A DNA stretch of 64,000 nucleotides from an uncultured Pseudomonadota bacterium. GTDB taxonomy: Bacteria > Pseudomonadota > Gammaproteobacteria > Steroidobacterales > Steroidobacteraceae. Below, piece by piece: positions 18,870 through 59,877 of the stretch. The stretch spans positions 1 to 64,000 of the forward strand of contig CAIYLH010000070.1 in NCBI GenBank assembly GCA_903927005.1, given 5' to 3'. The notes under the pieces are model-generated. The model saw only the letters and a list, made by a program, of their open reading frames with translations, ran no database searches and was not told the origin of the DNA. A program made the position numbers and the translations under genes. Every line of letters begins with the position of its first letter. Positions within the stretch are counted from its first letter, which is position 1.

Positions 18870-21800
18870 TCATTCTTCGTCGGCTGAGTTGAGATCCCGC
18901 GCCGGCCGTTGGTCCGGCTGGATTGGCGACAGATGCGCGGACTTCAGCTGGCCATTCATAGTTGATATCCCGGCCAGGAGCTTCGTCCAGGCCGCCCGCG
19001 GCGCCGCGAACTCCGCACTAATTACCTCGAACGCATCACTCTGCGCAGCCGTCGGGGCAGCGTCAGCACGCGTCACCGCAAGGTACAGCGTAGCCGCGTC
19101 AGCTTGCAGGGCCGGCAGCAGCCGCGCTCCACCCGCTGCCGCTCCCTGCGGCGCTTCAACCAGCTTCGCGGCGCGCCCGTCGAGCTCATGTAGCGCCGAC
19201 GCGAGCTTGCCGGTCGCGCGCAGGGCCTTCACCTGCTCGCGTACCGACGTAACCCCGAGCAACGCACGTGAAGTATCAGTCAGCAGACCCGAGAGCTTCT
19301 GCGCCAACTGCAGCTGCGTGGCGAGCGCCGCAGCGTCAGCCGGAACGCGAGGATCGGGCTTGAGGGTCAAGGGCGCCTCGCTACGGCGGCCCTCCACCGT
19401 CAGGCGTACGTGGTACTGGCCGGCCAGCGCGACCGGCCCTTCCGGGCCACGCGGCGTCGCGTGCGGCACAGCGCTAATCGGATAGCCACGCGTGATGCTG
19501 AGCGGTGCCGGGTACTGCAGGTCCCAGACCCAGCGATGCATCCCTGCGCGAGTCGACAAACTGGCTGCTGGCTTGACCCAGTAAGGCGGAATCAACTGAC
19601 TGGCGAGGTCCTCGGCAGACGGCTCGAGTGGATCGCTGCTCGAGTAACTGCGCACGAGCGCCCCATTCGCATCGAGAATTTCCAACTGTACGGCGCCCTT
19701 GGCGTCGTGCGGCAGGTAATACTCGATCACGGCTCCTGCCGGCGGGTTGGCAGCAGTCGGCTCGTCGGGCGGGATCGGCGTATCCGACCAAGTGCTACGC
19801 ATCACTCGATAGGTCACAGCAGGTGTCGCAAGGAACGTGTCGCTCATACGGGCGGGCGACAGCTCACGCAGCCTCGCGATGTCATCGAGAATCCAGAAAC
19901 CGCGACCGTGGGTGGCCACAATCAGATCGTCATCATGGATCGCCAGATCGCGCATGGAGGTGTGCGGCAGGTTAGCCTGCAGCGAATCCCAGTGATCGCC
20001 GGCATCAAAGGAGATCCATACCGCGGATTCGGTCGCCGCGAAGAGCAGCCCGGCACGGCGCGTGTCCTCGCGCACGGCATTGACGGCCGCGTCTGCCGGC
20101 AGACCCGCAGAGATCAACTGCCAAGTCCTGCCGGCGTCGCGCGTCCGGTAGACATACGGGCGGCGGTCATCGATACGGAACCGACTGACAGAGACGTAGG
20201 CTGTGTCGGCATCGAAGTGCGACGCCTCAATTTGGGTCACTTTGCTCCAAGGAGTCATAAGCGGCGGCGTGATGTCTGACCAATTCCCACCGCCATCGCG
20301 CGTATGCCATACCAGCCCGTCATCGGTTCCCGCCCACAGCGTGCCGGCCTGCAGCGGCGATGCGGCCAGCGAGTAAATCGCGCCACGCTGCTTGCCGGTG
20401 CTATCGGGGAAAAGCTTGCCGACGCTCGCCGGCATGCCGGGCTCCGCACGGGTGAGGTCCGGGCTGATTGCCTGCCAATGCCCGCCCCCATCGGTGGTGC
20501 GATAGAGCCTGTTCGCCGCGTAGTAAAGCGTGTGCGGATCCAGGGGCGAGAACAACAACGGCTCGGTGCGATCGACGCGAGCGGAGCCGCGCAGCGGCAG
20601 TGGCGTTACGTTCTGTATCTGCCCCGTCGACCAGTGGAACTTCGATACCTCGTTGCGGCCAGCGCCATACACGACATCGGGGTCAAGCGGATCCGGGGCG
20701 ACGTAACCGTATTCGATCGTGCCAACCGGACGCCAGTCCCGAACCGTGACCATCCCATCGTTGCCGCGGCTCGAAATGCAAACCGAGCCGCTCTCCTGTT
20801 GTCCCGAGCAGACGCGGTACGGAAAGGTCGGCGTGATGCCGACGTGGTACAGCTGCGCGGTCGGCTGGTTGAACCATGAACTCCACGTCTGACCGCCGTT
20901 CACGGTGACCACGGCACCTTGATCGGCAACCAAGGCGATGACGTTCGAATCGACGGGGCTGATCCACAGGTTCTGGTAGTCATCGCCGCCCGGTGCGCCG
21001 CGCAGTGCCGTCCATGTCCTGCCACCATCAAGGGACTTCGTCGACACGGTACTCGCGCTGTAGACCACGTCGGCGTTCTGCGGATCGACGCGCAGGACGG
21101 AGAGGTCACCGCCACCGATTCTCAGCGCCGGGCGCGGGTCCTGGGTAATTCGCACCCACGTCTCGCCCGCATCGTCGGAGCGGAACACACCAAGCCCAGC
21201 CGAGGAGGCGTAATCGCCGGGCTCGTTGGTACCGACGCTCAGGAATAGCCGGTTCGGGGCACTGGGCGCGATCGCAATGTTGGCCTGCGAGAGGTTCGCA
21301 GGGAGGCCCGCCGCCAGCTTGCGCCAGCTGGTACCGCCGTCGATGGACTTGTAGAGCCCACCGCCGGTACCGTTGAACTCGTTGTTGTCTTCCCACGGCC
21401 CGAGGCGCGCTTCCCAGAGCGCCGCGTAGACGACCTCAGGATGCTGCGGATCGATCACAACCGCACTGCCGCCGGTGTTTTCGTCCCGGGCCAGTACCTG
21501 CTGCCAGCTACGTCCGCCATCCAGCGAACGATAGATGCCACGCTCCGCACTCGGCCCATACGGGTGACCGAGTACCGCCGCAAATAGGCGGTCCGGGTTG
21601 TGCGGATCGACGGCCAGTTCGGGGATCTGCTGCGCTCCGGCAAGTCCCAGATGCACCCAGCTGCGGCCGCCATCGGCCGAGCGGTAGATGCCGTCGCCGA
21701 CCGACAGGTCAGGCCGGTACAGACCCTCGCCACTACCGACGTAGACGACGTTCGGGTCGGACGGCGCGACCGCGATCGCGCCTATCGACTGCGTGGGCTG

Positions 21801-22064
21801 GTCATCGAAAATGGGCTTCCAGGTCCGGCCGGCATCATCGGTCTTCCAGACGCCGCCGTTGACCGCGCCGACATAGAACACATTCGGCTGCGTGGGTACG
21901 CCGGCCACGGCCCGCGTGCGCCCGCCGCGGAACGGCCCGACCATCCGCCATTGCAGGTCCTGGAAGGCTCCAGCCGGCAGGGACTGCGCTTGGGCGAGGT
22001 CGGCGACTAGTCCAACCGAGAAGGCGATCAGCGCCCCGAGTAGAAATGAATTGCGTACGCGCAC
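18870..22064 (-). CDS. secreted BNR/sortilin-like beta-propeller protein
   Basis: The 1064-residue protein has a signal peptide ending near ADLAQAQS, then two beta-propellers made of BNR/Asp-box repeats (SADGGRSW, SLDGGRSW, SIDGGTSW, SDDAGETW, TRDGGGNW, TRDAGRTW and others). The first propeller opens with WRMVGPFRGGRTRAVAGVP. A beta-sandwich and a helical C-terminal domain (about 850-1064) follow. The family is annotated as glycosyl hydrolase or VPS10-like, but no catalytic residues can be pointed to and its ligand is unknown. The start is a GTG. A paralogue of the same architecture lies at 34526-37687 on the other strand. Confidence 0.88.
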   Translation of the reverse strand: MRVRNSFLLGALIAFSVGLVADLAQAQSLPAGAFQDLQWRMVGPFRGGRTRAVAGVPTQPNVFYVGAVNGGVWKTDDAGRTWKPIFDDQPTQSIGAIAVAPSDPNVVYVGSGEGLYRPDLSVGDGIYRSADGGRSWVHLGLAGAQQIPELAVDPHNPDRLFAAVLGHPYGPSAERGIYRSLDGGRSWQQVLARDENTGGSAVVIDPQHPEVVYAALWEARLGPWEDNNEFNGTGGGLYKSIDGGTSWRKLAAGLPANLSQANIAIAPSAPNRLFLSVGTNEPGDYASSAGLGVFRSDDAGETWVRITQDPRPALRIGGGDLSVLRVDPQNADVVYSASTVSTKSLDGGRTWTALRGAPGGDDYQNLWISPVDSNVIALVADQGAVVTVNGGQTWSSWFNQPTAQLYHVGITPTFPYRVCSGQQESGSVCISSRGNDGMVTVRDWRPVGTIEYGYVAPDPLDPDVVYGAGRNEVSKFHWSTGQIQNVTPLPLRGSARVDRTEPLLFSPLDPHTLYYAANRLYRTTDGGGHWQAISPDLTRAEPGMPASVGKLFPDSTGKQRGAIYSLAASPLQAGTLWAGTDDGLVWHTRDGGGNWSDITPPLMTPWSKVTQIEASHFDADTAYVSVSRFRIDDRRPYVYRTRDAGRTWQLISAGLPADAAVNAVREDTRRAGLLFAATESAVWISFDAGDHWDSLQANLPHTSMRDLAIHDDDLIVATHGRGFWILDDIARLRELSPARMSDTFLATPAVTYRVMRSTWSDTPIPPDEPTAANPPAGAVIEYYLPHDAKGAVQLEILDANGALVRSYSSSDPLEPSAEDLASQLIPPYWVKPAASLSTRAGMHRWVWDLQYPAPLSITRGYPISAVPHATPRGPEGPVALAGQYHVRLTVEGRRSEAPLTLKPDPRVPADAAALATQLQLAQKLSGLLTDTSRALLGVTSVREQVKALRATGKLASALHELDGRAAKLVEAPQGAAAGGARLLPALQADAATLYLAVTRADAAPTAAQSDAFEVISAEFAAPRAAWTKLLAGISTMNGQLKSAHLSPIQPDQRPARDLNSADEE

Positions 22065-34379: not shown

Positions 34380-34525
34380 GCGGTCCTGCCTTGCGGCGCG
34401 CCGATACGGCGCCAATCCTTGATAACACAGAGCCATGGAGCCTGCGATATCCGCAATCGCCGCTACGGCGGCCGGATTCGCATAGGATGGTCGCCCAAAG
34501 GCACTTGCCTGTTTGGAGGGTTTTC

Positions 34526-37500
34526 ATGATGCAGCGCGTCAAGCAGTTCATTTCACTGGTGGCACTCGCCGTCGCAACGCTGATCCCGGCGGTCGGCGCC
34601 CATGCTCAGGTCAATCCCGCCCTGATCTCAGGCATGAAGTGGCGCCAGATCGGCCCGTTCCGCGGCGGTCGGGTCGAGGCCGTCACCGGCGTGCCCGGCG
34701 ATTCGGCCACCTGGTACTTCGGCGGTGTCGCCGGCGGCGTATGGAAGAGCACGGATGCCGGCGTCACCTGGCAGCCGACGTTCGACGACCAGAAGATCTC
34801 CGCGATCGGCTCGATCGCCATCGCGGAGTCCGACCACAACGTGCTCTACGTCGGCAGCGGCGAGGCTTGCCCGCGCGGCAACATCACCTACGGCGATGGC
34901 GTCTACAAGTCGACCGACGGTGGCCATAGCTGGAAAAACCTCGGCCTGCGCGACTCGCAGCACATCGGCGCCGTGGTGGTGCACCCTCACAATGCCGACG
35001 TAGCGCTGGTTGCCGCCCTCGGCCACGCCTTCGGCCCGAACGAGGAGCGCGGCGTGTTCCGCACCGCGGACGGCGGCAAGAGCTGGCAAAAGACGCTCTA
35101 CAAGAACGCCGATACGGGCGCGGCCGATATCGTGCTCGACCCGGCAAACCCGTCTATCGCCTATGCCTCGATGTGGCAGATGCGCCGCCAGCCGTGGCAC
35201 TTTGCCAGCGGCGGCCCCGGCTCGGGCCTGTACAAGTCGACCGACAACGGCGTGACCTGGAAGCAGTTGCAGGGGCACGGACTGCCGGCGGGCAACCTCG
35301 GGCGCATCGGCCTGTCGGTCGCTGGCGGCGGCTCTGGCCGCGTCTACGCCCTGATCGAGGCAGAGGAAGGCGGTCTGTACCGCTCCGATGATCAGGGCAA
35401 CAGCTGGACGCGAGTCAACAGTGACCACCGTTTCCGCCAGCGCGCCTGGTACTTCAGCCACGTCTTTGCTGACCCGCAGTCGCCGGACGTCGTCTACGTC
35501 GCGAACACCGGGCTGTTCCGTTCGACCGACGGCGGCCGCACGTTCGAATTGCTCCCGGCGCCGCACGGCGACCATCACGCGATGTGGATCGACCCCACCA
35601 ATCCGCGGCGAATTATCGAGAGCAGCGACGGCGGCGCGAGCCTGTCGGTGGATGGCGGCAAGTCCTGGTCACCGGTCTACAACCAGCCGACGGCGCAGTT
35701 TTACCACGTCGCCGTCGATAACCACGTTCCGTACCGCATCTACGGCGCGCAGCAGGACAACACGACGGTGGCGATCGCCAGCCGCAGCGACGAGGGCGTG
35801 ATCGGCCGGCAGGACTGGTACCCGGTCGGCGGCGGCGAGAGCGGCTACATCGCGCCCGATCCGCGCGATCCGGAGATTGTCTACGCCAACTCAGAAGGCG
35901 GAACGGTCACGCGTTACGATCATCGAACCAACAACTATCGGGACGCCTCGCCCTACCCGCTGGATGTATCCGGCAATGGCGCCGAGTCGCTCAAGCACCG
36001 CCAGCAGTGGACCGAGCCGCTGTTCGTGTCGCAGTACGATTCCAACGTGCTCTATACCGCGTCGCAATTCGTACTCAAGACGACCGACCAGGGACGCAGC
36101 TGGCATGCGATCAGCCCGGACCTGACGCGCAACGACAAGAGCAAGCAGAAGCCCTCCGGCGGCGACATTACGCTCGACATCACCAGCGTCGAGTACTACG
36201 ACACCGTATTCGCGCTGAGCGAGTCGCCCCTGCAGCGCGGCATGCTCTGGGCCGGCACGGACGATGGCCTGATCCACCTGACGCGCGACGACGGCAGCAG
36301 CTGGCAGAACGTCACACCGAAGGACATGCCGGCCTGGAGCATGATCAGCATCATCGAGGCCTCCACGCACGATGCAGGCACGGCGTTCGTCGCGGTGGAC
36401 CGTCACAAGCTGGATGACCTCAAGCCGCTGATCTATAGGACGCATGACTACGGCAAGACCTGGACGCGAATCACCACCGGGATACCCGAGGGGGCCTACG
36501 TGCGCTCGGTTCGAGAGGACCCGACCCGCGCTGGCCTGCTCTATGCGGGCACGGAACTGGGCGTGTTCTTCTCGATGGACGATGGCGCGCACTGGCAACC
36601 GCTGCAGCTGAACCTGCCGCCGGTGCCGATCCACGATCTTGCGATCAAGGACGGCGACCTGGTCGCAGCGACGCACGGTCGTTCGTTTTGGGTCCTCGAC
36701 GACCTGTCGCCACTGCGTCAGTCGAGCTCAGTCCGCGCCGACGCCGCCGCGCACCTGTACCGTCCGGCGCCGGCCGTACGCTTGCGCGTGCCGTCACAGG
36801 TCGAGCGCCGGCTGCCGGTGGGCGACAACCCGCCGCCCGGAGCGGTGGTCGACTTCTACCTGAAGGAGAAGCCGGCGGCTGAGGAGGAGATCACGCTCGA
36901 GTTCCTGGATGCGGGCGGTGTGCTGGTCAAGAAGTTCTCGAACCACAAGCCGAAGGACGCCTACGATCAGCCGGCAGAGTGGACCGATCGCGAAGTGACG
37001 GCCGACACGATCCCGTCCGACGCCGGCGCCAACCGCTTCGGGTGGGACCTGCGCCGCACTGATCCGACGGTCATCCCCGGTGCCGTATACGCCGACGACG
37101 GCCCGCGCGGGTCGGTTGTACGTCCCGGGCACTATCAGGTAAGACTGACCGTGCGTGGCCAGAGCCAGACCGTCCCGCTGGAGGTCGTGCTCGACCCACG
37201 TCTCAACGGTCAGGTCACCGAGCAGGAGTTGGGCAGCCTGGAGGCACTGGCACTACAGACGTGGACCGATATTGACGCGCTGCACCGCGCCGTCAATCAA
37301 ATGCGGGAGACACGGACCAAGCTGCAGACCCTGCAGAAGTGGAGCGCCGACAACGCTGCGGCGAAGCCGGTGATTGCGGCGAGCGAGGCGCTGGTCGCCA
37401 GGATCGGCGCGATCGAGGAGCAGATGCTGCAGACGCGACTCGAGGCGTCCGAGGACTCGCTGCGCTACCCGGTCAAGCTAAACGAGCAGTACGACACCTT

Positions 37501-37687
37501 CTCGTGGAACCTTGACTCGGACTGGGCACCCACCACCCCGCAGCGCGAGATCTACACGCTGCTACACGGCCAGCTGACAACGGAGCTCGGCCGCTGGCGC
37601 GAGCTGGTGCACACCGACCTGCCTGCACTCAACGCCCTGCTACGCACGCACGGCGTACCGCAGATCGGTGGGTTCGAGGCTCCCTGA
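34526..37687 (+). CDS. secreted BNR/sortilin-like beta-propeller protein, second copy
   Basis: The 1053-residue protein has a signal peptide (ISLVALAVATLIPAVGAHAQ) followed by two propellers rich in Asp-box repeats (STDAGVTW, STDGGHSW, TADGGKSW, STDNGVTW, SDDQGNSW, STDGGRTF). It begins WRQIGPFRGGRVEAVTGVPG, nearly the same as the paralogue at 18870-22064. Two ATGs (34526 and 34529) lie 5 and 8 bases past a GGAGGG ribosome binding site. The C-terminal helical region (about 910-1040) is shared too. No catalytic residues are evident. The pair suggests expansion of a secreted recognition or polysaccharide-processing protein. Confidence 0.9.
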   Translation: MMQRVKQFISLVALAVATLIPAVGAHAQVNPALISGMKWRQIGPFRGGRVEAVTGVPGDSATWYFGGVAGGVWKSTDAGVTWQPTFDDQKISAIGSIAIAESDHNVLYVGSGEACPRGNITYGDGVYKSTDGGHSWKNLGLRDSQHIGAVVVHPHNADVALVAALGHAFGPNEERGVFRTADGGKSWQKTLYKNADTGAADIVLDPANPSIAYASMWQMRRQPWHFASGGPGSGLYKSTDNGVTWKQLQGHGLPAGNLGRIGLSVAGGGSGRVYALIEAEEGGLYRSDDQGNSWTRVNSDHRFRQRAWYFSHVFADPQSPDVVYVANTGLFRSTDGGRTFELLPAPHGDHHAMWIDPTNPRRIIESSDGGASLSVDGGKSWSPVYNQPTAQFYHVAVDNHVPYRIYGAQQDNTTVAIASRSDEGVIGRQDWYPVGGGESGYIAPDPRDPEIVYANSEGGTVTRYDHRTNNYRDASPYPLDVSGNGAESLKHRQQWTEPLFVSQYDSNVLYTASQFVLKTTDQGRSWHAISPDLTRNDKSKQKPSGGDITLDITSVEYYDTVFALSESPLQRGMLWAGTDDGLIHLTRDDGSSWQNVTPKDMPAWSMISIIEASTHDAGTAFVAVDRHKLDDLKPLIYRTHDYGKTWTRITTGIPEGAYVRSVREDPTRAGLLYAGTELGVFFSMDDGAHWQPLQLNLPPVPIHDLAIKDGDLVAATHGRSFWVLDDLSPLRQSSSVRADAAAHLYRPAPAVRLRVPSQVERRLPVGDNPPPGAVVDFYLKEKPAAEEEITLEFLDAGGVLVKKFSNHKPKDAYDQPAEWTDREVTADTIPSDAGANRFGWDLRRTDPTVIPGAVYADDGPRGSVVRPGHYQVRLTVRGQSQTVPLEVVLDPRLNGQVTEQELGSLEALALQTWTDIDALHRAVNQMRETRTKLQTLQKWSADNAAAKPVIAASEALVARIGAIEEQMLQTRLEASEDSLRYPVKLNEQYDTFSWNLDSDWAPTTPQREIYTLLHGQLTTELGRWRELVHTDLPALNALLRTHGVPQIGGFEAP

Positions 37688-37798: not shown

Positions 37799-39754
37799 TC
37801 AGTGAAGCTGCTGCGGCGTCAGATTTGCGCGCAGGAATTCTTCAATTTCGCGCATCACACGAACGCGATCTTTCGTCGTCCACGACCAGTCATCCTCGCC
37901 CTCAAGACGAACAAGCGTCACCTTCTTGCCGCCGGCCTTGAGCGCGTTCGCGAATTTTTCGGACTGGTCGAAGGGTATGCGCCGATCTGCGGTAGCGTGT
38001 ATGAGCAGCACCGGCGCCTTGATGGCAGCAACGGCGTTCAGCGGGGATTTTTCGACCAGCCCACGATCATTCGGCGCACCTAGATGGACCTTCCAGTAGG
38101 CGAGGTTGGTTGAATCGGCAAAGTCGAATATCTTCGCGGTCTCCACGATCAGTGTGGGCAAATCGGACGCGCCACCGATGCTGACCGCACACGCATACAG
38201 ATCGGGAGTGAATGCCACGCCGGCCAGCGCCACGTAGCCGGCGTAGTTTTCGCCGACAATGCAGATGTGCTGCCGATCGGCCACGCGCCGCTCGATCATC
38301 GCTCGGACGCCATCAGTGACGTCGTCCTGCATCAGGCCGCCCCACTGACGCATCCCTGCTTCACGGAACGCTTCCCCAAAGCCACTAGAACCGCGAAACT
38401 GTGGCTGCAACACCGCATAGCCGCGGCTGGCGAAAAACTGCACGATCCAGTTGAACAGCGCGTAGTCGCGCGAATCTGGCGCCTCATGCGGCAGCACGAC
38501 CATCGGCAGCGGCGAGGCGGGCTGCTCAGAAATGCCAGGTGGCAGCGTCAGGTAAGCAGGAATCTTCGCTCCATCACGAGCGGAGTAGGAAATCTCGTGG
38601 ACGGATGCCATCGGCACCTTCGCGAGCGTTGGATATTCCTCCGCGGCGATATCCGCTCGCCGCGCAGCGAAATCTACAAGGTAGTAAACCGGCGGCGTCG
38701 CATCGGTCTCGACGCGCGCAATGACCTTCTGGCCATCGGCACTCCAGTTGGTCATCCATACGATGCGGCCGCTGAACGAGCGTTGCAGCGACTCAGCGCG
38801 CTGCTTGGCGCCGGGGTCGACCCAGCGCGGGCCGGGGTGCTCGCCGGTCGCGAAGACTCCGGCCATGACGCCGGTGTTCGGATCGCGGAGCACGCCCGTG
38901 ATGTCGGATGACGGATCTTCGACGAAGACCTGTGGTGGCGCGCCGTCTAACGGTAGCGCCCACGCAGCGACATGCGCACGACCGTTAGCCGCCAGCAGCA
39001 CGACGGAGGAACGCTCGGGGGACAGCCCCACAAGGATCGGTCGCTCGCTATCGTCGTGCCTGTAGATTTCCTTGACGCCCTCCCCTGCCAGAGAAAAGAC
39101 GCGATACACGTGGTGACGCCAGTCCCAGTCCTCGCGAGCAACCGCGCGCCCGTCGGCATCGACGACCCAGTCCACCGTCATCGGATTTCCGAAAGCGACC
39201 GGCGTGGGCACGCCGGTTCGGGTATCCACCTCGTAGAGACAGCGCTCGGTACCGCCCTTGCAACCGTAGTAGGACGCCATGATCACCGTCTTCGGTTTCG
39301 TCGTGCGCGCAGCGATGAGCGCGGCATGCGGCCCGGACTTTCCGCCAACGGCCATGAGCATACGGCCCACACCCCCGCTAACGTCGTGGGCGATTGTGCG
39401 GACGGCTTCGAATCCGGGGCCAGCGCCATGGCGCGGCGGCCGCGTTTCGCTCACGGTGATGAGCAAGGTCTCGCCATCCACCCAGTTCAGGGCGCGCAAT
39501 CGAGTCTGTTCGGGCACCGCGAGCACGCGCTGCGTCTTGCGCGCCTGTACGTCAAACATCACGACACGCGGCTGCGCCTCGGTTTGGTCGCACCACGCCA
39601 GCCAGCGGCCATCGGGACTGATCACGACGGCCGTCTCGGCCGGAAATGCCGCAAAAGCTTCGACTGATGGCAGTGCGGCGGCGGCCGCGTTGGCCGCCAG
39701 CGACGCCAGCAAGCACGCACCTACCCGTAGTAAGGCGGTAAATATGAACTTCAC
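37799..39754 (-). CDS. S9 prolyl-oligopeptidase homologue lacking Ser and His, pseudoenzyme
   Basis: The 651-residue protein has a signal peptide (FTALLRVGACLLASLAANAA), an N-terminal propeller of WD-like blades and a C-terminal alpha/beta-hydrolase domain. In the nucleophile elbow the expected GxSxGG is VGENYAGY, with Asn at about residue 503 in place of Ser. The usual GEDHW His motif is GEDDW, with Asp at about 622. The third triad residue, Asp in HATADRRIP, remains. It should therefore lack peptidase activity. The reading frame is intact, and codon use and length (family about 650-700) are normal. The start is GTG 39754, just before the signal peptide. Confidence 0.85.
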   Translation of the reverse strand: MKFIFTALLRVGACLLASLAANAAAAALPSVEAFAAFPAETAVVISPDGRWLAWCDQTEAQPRVVMFDVQARKTQRVLAVPEQTRLRALNWVDGETLLITVSETRPPRHGAGPGFEAVRTIAHDVSGGVGRMLMAVGGKSGPHAALIAARTTKPKTVIMASYYGCKGGTERCLYEVDTRTGVPTPVAFGNPMTVDWVVDADGRAVAREDWDWRHHVYRVFSLAGEGVKEIYRHDDSERPILVGLSPERSSVVLLAANGRAHVAAWALPLDGAPPQVFVEDPSSDITGVLRDPNTGVMAGVFATGEHPGPRWVDPGAKQRAESLQRSFSGRIVWMTNWSADGQKVIARVETDATPPVYYLVDFAARRADIAAEEYPTLAKVPMASVHEISYSARDGAKIPAYLTLPPGISEQPASPLPMVVLPHEAPDSRDYALFNWIVQFFASRGYAVLQPQFRGSSGFGEAFREAGMRQWGGLMQDDVTDGVRAMIERRVADRQHICIVGENYAGYVALAGVAFTPDLYACAVSIGGASDLPTLIVETAKIFDFADSTNLAYWKVHLGAPNDRGLVEKSPLNAVAAIKAPVLLIHATADRRIPFDQSEKFANALKAGGKKVTLVRLEGEDDWSWTTKDRVRVMREIEEFLRANLTPQQLH

Positions 39755-58532: not shown

Positions 58533-59729
58533 TCAGACGCCGGCCACCATCGCCGGCGTCGCCAGCCGATAGCCCTTCAGAGCTCGCGCGAACTCCTGCA
58601 GTCGCTCGATTCCGCTCGCCTCGGCCTCGCGCACCCAATCGCGCAAGTACCCCGTCAACCGCTCGTTGTCGCCGATCGTGCCGCTCCACAGCACGGCCAA
58701 GCGCTGCTGGAAGTCGTGCACCGTACGCAGCGCAGCACTCTGCGCGAGTACCTGCTGCAGGCGCGCGCGCGCGGCGTCGTCCAGCAACTTAGGATGGCGG
58801 ACCAGCAGCTTTCGAACCCGCAGGCTGAGCGCACCGGCGCTACGCGCCGCCTCGGCCTTCAACACCGGCATCGTCACCGTGCGCGCGTAGTTACGCAGCA
58901 CATCCATGCGCGCAGTGATCACCGTGCGCACTGTATCCAGATCCACCACCGGCCGCGGCGCCTCGACGCGCGCACGCGGGGCGACCTTGCGCACCTTGGC
59001 CAGCCCGACCGCGGAGAACAGCGTCAGCCACATCCAGCCGATATCGAACTCGTAACTGCGCATCGAGAAACGCGCCGAGGAGGGGAATGCATGGTGGTTG
59101 TTGTGCAACTCCTCGCCACCGGTCAGCAGCCCCCACGGCATCAGATTGCGGGCGGCGTTGTCGCATTCGAAGTTGCGGTAACCCAGCGCGTGGCCGAGGC
59201 CATTGATGACGCCCGCCGCCATGACCGGCATCGCGGCCATCTGCACCGCGATGATGATGATTCCCGGGACACCAAACAGCACCAGATCGGCCAAAATCAG
59301 CGAAATCAGGCCCAGGTTGCGGTAGCGCGCGTACACGTTGCGCTCGACCCAGTCATCCGGCGTGCCACGGCCGTACTTGGCTGCGATCGCCGGATCGCGA
59401 GCGGACGCTTGGTACACTTCGGCACCCTCAAGCAGGATCTTGCGTAGGCCGAGCAGGACGGGACTGTGCGGATCGCCCTCGACGTCGGAAAACGCGTGAT
59501 GCTTGCGATGCACGGCGACCCACTCACGGGTAATTTGCCCGGAGGTGGCCCAGATCCAGAGGCGGAAGAAATGACGCAGTACCGGGTGCAGGTCGACGGC
59601 GCGGTGCGCAGCGTCGCGATGCAGGTACAACGTGACCGCCATCATCGTGATCTGCACCATGACAAAGCCGGCCAGAACGTAGCCCCAGAAGCTCAGATTC
59701 AGGACACCGTAGAGAAAATCGAGGTTCAC
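58533..59729 (-). CDS. delta-9-type fatty acid desaturase
   Basis: The 398-residue membrane enzyme has the three His boxes: HRDAAH, HRKHH (AVHRKHHAFSDVEGDPHSP) and HNNHH (EELHNNHHAFPSSARFSM). It inserts a double bond into acyl chains. The C-terminal third (about 285-398) is helical and longer than in typical desaturases. The start is one of two in-frame GTGs (59735 and 59729) after AGGAGTGAA; the second is chosen for spacing. It is divergent from mutM. Confidence 0.92.
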   Translation of the reverse strand: MNLDFLYGVLNLSFWGYVLAGFVMVQITMMAVTLYLHRDAAHRAVDLHPVLRHFFRLWIWATSGQITREWVAVHRKHHAFSDVEGDPHSPVLLGLRKILLEGAEVYQASARDPAIAAKYGRGTPDDWVERNVYARYRNLGLISLILADLVLFGVPGIIIIAVQMAAMPVMAAGVINGLGHALGYRNFECDNAARNLMPWGLLTGGEELHNNHHAFPSSARFSMRSYEFDIGWMWLTLFSAVGLAKVRKVAPRARVEAPRPVVDLDTVRTVITARMDVLRNYARTVTMPVLKAEAARSAGALSLRVRKLLVRHPKLLDDAARARLQQVLAQSAALRTVHDFQQRLAVLWSGTIGDNERLTGYLRDWVREAEASGIERLQEFARALKGYRLATPAMVAGV

Positions 59730-59877
59730 GTGCACTTCACTCCTAAGTTCCAGCGCGGGATTGGCGCGGCTCCCTCTGGGGCCCGCCCAAGCAGGCATCA
59801 TACGCCCGTTATGGGGGATATAAGCTGCGGATTCAATAGGGGTTTTTTAATTTCAGCCGGCCACGGAACAGATTCAC

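Follow-up and report, generated by a model that had tools for sequence, protein, structure and literature searches.

What maintains an open, full-length peptidase gene whose product carries neither the catalytic serine nor the catalytic histidine of its family? The question was raised by a gene on the minus strand (37799..39754) of a 64,000-nucleotide stretch of DNA, hereafter the window, from an uncultured bacterium of the family Steroidobacteraceae. A preliminary description had read the product as an S9 peptidase deprived of both residues and probably kept as a pseudoenzyme.

An S9 fold that lacks the catalytic serine and histidine

The gene encodes a 651-aa protein in a frame that is open from the GTG start to the stop, in agreement with the complete frame of the preliminary description, and its codon composition is ordinary (GC3 of 0.738, compared to 0.66–0.85 for seven further ORFs on this stretch). 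The Pfam model Peptidase_S9 (PF00326) matched residues 434–645 at 1.5e-36 and 126.3 bits, against a gathering cut-off of 22.6. An AlphaFold model computed from an input alignment of 57 sequences (the window protein and related loci) reached a pLDDT of 93.1 and a pTM of 0.91. A beta-propeller at residues ~40–372 (38639..39637, minus strand), delimited from the model strands and from full-length alignment to acylaminoacyl peptidases, precedes an alpha/beta-hydrolase domain at residues ~381–648 (37811..38614, minus strand), delimited from the Pfam match and the model. Both the family-model score and this order of a predicted N-terminal propeller and C-terminal hydrolase mark the protein as a member of S9. 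Residues ~1–26 (39677..39754, minus strand) form a probable Sec signal peptide, read by eye from a basic residue, a hydrophobic helix and an Ala-rich end, and the model contains a helix at residues 2–21.

Foldseek followed by VIA-align matched the model to an S9 carboxypeptidase (8wt1; Z 36.4, rmsd 4.3, 571 aligned residues) and to the Aeropyrum acylaminoacyl peptidase (1ve6; Z 36.2, rmsd 4.6, 549 aligned residues), and solved S9 structures among the 50 VIA-align entries listed scored Z 31–36. The confident model and the closeness of these solved structures suggested that the S9 fold is retained despite the missing catalytic residues. The acylaminoacyl and other S9 peptidases 1ve6, 5l8s, 8wt1 and 7c72 share with the window protein the propeller and the hydrolase domain (Z 35.3–36.4 over 549–578 residues) and the identical order of the triad motifs, whereas they carry Ser and His where the window protein, at 17–19% identity, has Asn-Asp-Asp, and HGGP where it has HEAP. 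Acylaminoacyl peptidases bear the subfamily label S9C in one source (PMC11878206). The two top-scoring NCBIfam models, the Atxe2-type lasso peptide isopeptidase (NF033523; 44.7 bits, 7.9e-12) and the dipeptidyl-peptidase Dpp5 (NF053518; 71.4 bits, 5.8e-20), scored the protein far under their curated cut-offs of 400 and 900, respectively.

In place of the GxSxGG elbow of active S9 serine peptidases, the window protein has GENYAGY (38234..38254, minus strand; GGC GAA AAC TAC GCC in the bases), with Asn503 (AAC, 38246–38248) replacing Ser. The former His motif GEDHW now reads GEDDW (37886..37900, minus strand; GAG GAT GAC TGG), with Asp622 (GAC, 37889–37891) in place of His. Pairwise alignment with the solved enzyme 5l8s placed its GGSYGGY serine on Asn503 and its EGHG histidine on Asp622, confirming the claims of the preliminary description that catalytic Ser was lost from VGENYAGY (Asn at about residue 503) and catalytic His from GEDDW (Asp at about residue 622). 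Two further features are absent from the preliminary description. The catalytic Asp590 (GAT, 37985..37987, minus strand), assigned from the bases and from its alignment column, is retained, and the HGGP motif of the intact homologs listed, which we take to have an oxyanion role in S9 enzymes, reads HEAP at residues 423–426 (38477..38488, minus strand), so that PHGGP has become PHEAP (residues 422–426) with two residues altered. We infer from established S9 chemistry that the protein would not hydrolyze peptides. A peptidase annotation drawn from the family match alone would be misleading for such genes, as Pfam scores the protein well above its cut-off.

Triad departures concentrate in one clade

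A whole-genome search of 217 genomes of the window's family returned some match in 209 of them. In the wider genome contigs, a single-protein query gave no match and a profile query did. Of the 202 homologs that were aligned, 114 were left from 129 rows after cuts at 560 aa and 150 bits, and the other 88 were admitted without the length cut. The nearest homologs were 45–52% identical to the window protein, the best in the searched genomes reaching 52%. Alignment with these relatives, which the preliminary description had proposed, bore out N503 and D622 as departures, the Ser-Asp-His triad being intact in 181 of the 202. As many as 15 of the 21 departures fell into a single 17-row clade containing the window gene, in which two members are intact; this concentration indicated that the loss in the window gene is more than a chance event, and it supplied the similarly changed relatives that were to be searched for. 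All 15 dead rows of the clade are open frames of 609–667 aa, as found after the 560-aa length cut.

The clade is composed of two subclades. In the eight-row subclade of the window gene, the triad columns read N-D-D in the window protein, S-D-H in both L012 and L128, Y-gap-Y in L013, G-D-D in L014, A-D-H in L015, A-E-Q in L016 and T-T-A in L018; L018, L012 and L128 retain the HGGP motif, which is altered in the other five (the window protein, L013, L014, L015 and L016). The sister subclade (L035, L036, L038, L039, L040, L068, L071, L072 and L074) has Gly at the serine column in 9/9 members, combined with His (5/9), Asn (3/9) or Gln (1/9) at the histidine column, and in all eight of its rows listed the RGSTG loop is altered together with the HGGP motif. 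The contig of the intact member L128 (VBAK01000182.1) is titled Terrabacteria group bacterium ANGP1, yet its protein sits firmly among those of Steroidobacteraceae; the contig is possibly misbinned, or the gene transferred. A clade that combines recurrent loss with intact relatives at 47–58% identity provides a natural comparison set for examining which function causes a dead peptidase to be retained and whether that function predates the loss.

Outside the clade, the triad was intact in 179 of 185 rows. In three of the six exceptions (L124, L189 and L161) the C-terminal end seems to be absent or displaced, and three resemble real losses: the second gene of L076 (R-D-R), L101 (G-D-H) and the second gene of L185 (D-D-H). 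The L076 second gene (Ser to Arg, His to Arg) and L101 (Ser to Gly) belong to genus g5 and to a group with intact close relatives, a placement pointing to similar losses elsewhere in the family. The second gene of L185, on a contig of Phenylobacterium haematophilum, has at the serine column the Asp that is found in DPP6, and the primary S9 gene lies on the same locus.

These relatives also bear on the suspicion that Asn503 and Asp622 are assembly or sequencing errors. The genome is a draft of 139 contigs, and each codon is one base away from the catalytic one (AGC to AAC, CAC to GAC). An artifact would nevertheless take two in-frame errors exactly at the catalytic codons in addition to the two altered residues of the oxyanion motif, and similar losses recur in other genomes, which leaves this explanation a negligible probability.

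Separate losses or loss followed by regain

A tree of 47 rows was built with the catalytic and oxyanion columns excluded. Support was 96/91 for the 17-row clade, 99/95 for the window subclade of eight rows, 100/99 for that subclade without L015 (seven rows), 100/100 for the Gly subclade, 97/95 for the group of L128, L012 and L013 and 96/89 for the pair L012 and L013; L016 with L018 was more weakly supported (92/91). If loss is irreversible, six separate losses are required on this tree, namely in the Gly subclade, L015, the window gene, L014, the ancestor of L016 and L018, and L013. Unordered parsimony needs a minimum of three changes between the intact and lost states, one regain included, and this shorter count favors a different history, in which the ancestor of the clade was already dead, survived in a non-catalytic capacity, and passed on a peptidase that was revived when L012 and L128 regained the serine through the other codon family. 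The codons are in line with such a regain, as L012 and L128 use TCT and TCA, and their nearest intact relatives use AGC or AGT; switching between the serine codon sets takes a tandem substitution (PMC6872785). If it were true, the regain would represent natural reactivation of an enzyme inside a pseudoenzyme lineage. However, TCN codons occupy the serine column in 38 of the 184 serine-bearing homologs, the codon class thus varying also in groups without any sign of loss, and in L012 and L128 all remaining active-site motifs are in place, with none of their 34 near-active-site cells altered, which would be unlikely after a dead phase. On these two grounds we favor repeated loss and regard a revived clade as distinctly unlikely.

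Dead members are constrained and change more densely near the active site

Pairwise dN/dS was compared between dead and intact members. The close dead pairs of the Gly subclade gave 0.35, 0.25, 0.13, 0.18 and 0.31 by NG86 and 0.27, 0.20, 0.09, 0.15 and 0.19 by YN00, and two more distant dead pairs (58–62% identity) gave 0.30 and 0.43, for an overall range of 0.09–0.43 in seven dead pairs. Intact pairs gave 0.05, 0.03, 0.03, 0.04, 0.19 and 0.26 when close and 0.20, 0.21, 0.23 and 0.29 when distant; one further intact pair, with almost no changes, gave 0.46, and the mixed pair of intact L081 and dead L101 gave 0.20. With NG86 values of 0.13–0.43, compared to 0.025–0.29 in the ten intact pairs, the Gly subclade evolved more loosely than several, though not all, of the intact pairs. 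The window gene paired with four relatives at 48–52% identity gave NG86 values of 0.21–0.29 that are unreliable, dS being 1.6–2.2 and near saturation. One-ratio codon models of the window subclade returned an omega of 0.041 when limited to its six dead members, whose synonymous changes are near saturation, and 0.063 for all eight; omega was 0.177 for the Gly subclade, and 0.092 and 0.069 for two intact sets. The dead relatives are under protein-level constraint, the Gly subclade more loosely, and among them the selection measurement called for in the preliminary description came out below 1 on either approach.

To locate the changes within the hydrolase domain, we used 62 columns with a uniformity of at least 95% across 30 intact rows, of which 17 lie near the active-site motifs (triad excluded) and 42 are others. 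Dead members of the window subclade were altered at 21 of 102 near-site cells versus 28 of 252 elsewhere (p 0.026), and those of the Gly subclade at 72 of 153 versus 62 of 378 (p 1e-12), in contrast to the intact members L012 and L128 with 0 of 34 versus 6 of 84 (p 0.18); rows share ancestry, which makes all three p values optimistic, and taken row by row p fell below 0.05 in some dead rows only. Decay in the dead members is concentrated at the active-site motifs, and farther from the active site the dead rows keep 84–89% of the uniform hydrolase columns. A shift of constraint to the propeller was considered and not adopted. The hydrolase/propeller ratio of terminal branches had a higher median in all 15 dead rows than in intact Steroidobacteraceae rows (0.81 versus 0.63, p 0.02, optimistic for the same reason of shared ancestry), but the difference was not significant for the six rows of the window subclade alone (p 0.26), and no shift appeared in codon omegas computed separately for propeller and hydrolase (0.040 and 0.048 in the window dead members, 0.197 and 0.153 in the Gly subclade).

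Low dN/dS and intact frames have to be weighed against evidence that genes of this family do disappear. Full-length clade members were present in 3 of 15 genomes of the window's genus, and presence is patchy in genera g1 and g2. Another genome of the window's genus, G099, contains a remnant (L253 1711–2137, G099:C116) that comprises the C-terminal part only, with 50% identity to residues 504–585, a continuation to residue 645 in another frame and Tyr at the His column; the N-terminal part was not found in the 4 kb read. This remnant adjoins another S9 gene on the opposite strand. A partial homolog in another genus (L058 in G136, 48% identity) has kept the triad motifs and lost the central part of the sequence, a situation opposite to that of the window gene. 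Together, the two broken copies demonstrated that the family loses copies, and the G099 remnant in particular weakens the case for retention and strengthens that for decay. Their count is a lower bound, since the 560-aa length cut partly filtered broken copies. The window gene could accordingly be on its way to loss under relaxed selection, its catalysis redundant, its active site drifting and its frame open just because decay is recent. The variety of triad residues among most dead lineages and the higher dN/dS of Gly-subclade pairs relative to several intact ones would suit such decay. Against it stand the full length of lineages that are ~50% identical to each other, the Gly subclade that stayed open through several splits without its serine, dN/dS well below 1, and the conserved hydrolase columns off the active site. 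Recent decay is therefore possible but, in our judgment, unlikely.

Candidate substitute catalytic residues

The preliminary description had named another Ser/His pair replacing the triad as the result that would contradict it. Such a pair was sought over all 15 dead rows of the 202 aligned, and no Ser, His or Cys common to dead and rare in intact members was found. At the column of residue 503, the dead rows of the window subclade carry N, Y, G, A, A and T, and the sister subclade has G throughout, so that no replacement nucleophile is common to them. Five residues, D56, T184, D234, E387 and Y431, none of them Ser, His or Cys, were each present in at least five of the six dead members of the window subclade and seldom in intact rows. 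D234 and E387 were rejected as substitutes on account of their presence in both intact members L012 and L128, and D56 and Y431 on account of their presence in one of the two; these four residues mark the clade, not the loss. Thr184 (39203–39205), in the propeller, sets the dead members of the window subclade, all six of which have it, apart from L012 and L128, which lack it.

The protein might alternatively still be an enzyme, its active site having been rebuilt. Asn503, Asp590 and Asp622 would be adjacent by homology and might form, for example, a metal site, L014 has Asp at the His column as well, and serine-less proteins of the alpha/beta-hydrolase fold with another activity exist (PMC11878206). 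The dead members nevertheless have no common set of replacement residues, and the oxyanion motif is altered too, to HEAP. We consider a rebuilt enzyme, whether with a metal site or with another reaction of this fold, very improbable.

A putative non-catalytic role and its precedents

The window protein has lost its nucleophile and base along with part of the oxyanion motif, it is encoded in an open frame, and purifying selection acts on related dead genes. The product is probably a secreted or periplasmic S9 pseudopeptidase of a soil bacterium, retained for a non-catalytic role of its active ancestor, most likely the binding of peptide or protein. The earlier reading of a gene kept as a pseudoenzyme is supported within limits, by homologs that are dead, divergent, open and constrained. 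The apparently separate losses among relatives suggest that the protein has a second, non-cutting job. The active ancestor may already have possessed a second function that needed the folded propeller and hydrolase body and not catalysis, most likely the binding of a peptide or of a protein partner, within or close to the interdomain tunnel. Catalysis would then have become dispensable in a genome with other S9-like genes, and could have been lost separately in several lineages, mostly to a different residue each time. Five columns that mark at least seven of the eight window-subclade members, dead and intact alike, four of them in the propeller, fit such a common non-catalytic function, if thinly.

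The published S9 pseudoenzymes of known function that we located are channel subunits of animals. In mammals, the S9 proteins DPP6 and DPP10 are inactive (PMC4873792, PMC4350108); they resemble the window protein in having lost the nucleophile (replaced by Asp in DPP6 and by Gly in DPP10) and in acting non-catalytically. Unlike the window protein, they are partners of Kv4 channels, DPP10 keeps its His, and DPP6 chains match the window protein weakly (4.5e-7 to 1.2e-6). Neither DPP6 nor DPP10 appeared among the 50 VIA-align entries listed, a result uninformative on kinship. Fly DPP10 both binds Kv4 channels and cleaves peptides (PMC4873792). Fungal Ssd1/Dis3L2 pseudonucleases offer a parallel of another kind: their active-site signature was lost independently at least four times, for which a bifunctional ancestor has been proposed (PMC8097288). 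They differ in having an unrelated fold, in belonging to unrelated organisms and in a second function, RNA binding, that is known. By analogy, fly DPP10 and Dis3L2/Ssd1 may serve as precedents for the bifunctional ancestor envisaged here (PMC4873792, PMC8097288).

A survey of prokaryotic prolyl oligopeptidases describes the triad as highly conserved in all subtypes (PMC4522959). A BEM46-like S9 pseudopeptidase is listed for Trypanosoma brucei in another source (PMC4376731). No bacterial S9 pseudopeptidase clade was found among the literature matches listed, subscription papers being largely outside their scope. S9 pseudoenzymes are known in animals; relative to these matches, a clade of recurrent loss in bacteria is new.

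Genomic context

The window's genome, a draft, contains ten other S9-like matches, partial and 24–32% identical to the window protein. All eight of the ten that were displayed keep the elbow serine, making peptidase redundancy in the same genome likely. Regulation of a close active paralog was rejected as a role of the window protein, as the ten matches include no close active twin.

Neighbors were compared around 22 loci (the window, other clade members and intact relatives), and none clearly recurs beside the window subclade, whereas close relatives within the Gly subclade, and the pair L132 and L199, have strongly common neighbors. An amino-acid permease lies 2–4 kb from the window gene and 1–3 kb from the gene in the genome of L012, the two permeases being 33% identical and differing in orientation, and an EAL/GGDEF protein is encoded directly beside the intact genes of L132 and L199 and ~6 kb from the gene in the genome of L014 (28–29%). 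Both were discarded as functional hints, being common families with weak recurrence. The window gene itself is flanked by genes for a VPS10/BNR-repeat protein, a NapC/NirT cytochrome and a cytochrome c that have no stated link to it. Two large VPS10/sortilin-like BNR-repeat proteins are encoded within the 64 kb (34391–37687, plus strand, and 18870–22064, minus strand), and one of the two genes is convergent with that of the pseudopeptidase. Farther along, a 422-aa ORF (58533–59801, minus strand) joins a fatty-acid desaturase (residues 38–241) and an ISL3-type transposase domain (residues 326–412) in a single frame, perhaps as an insertion-element fusion.
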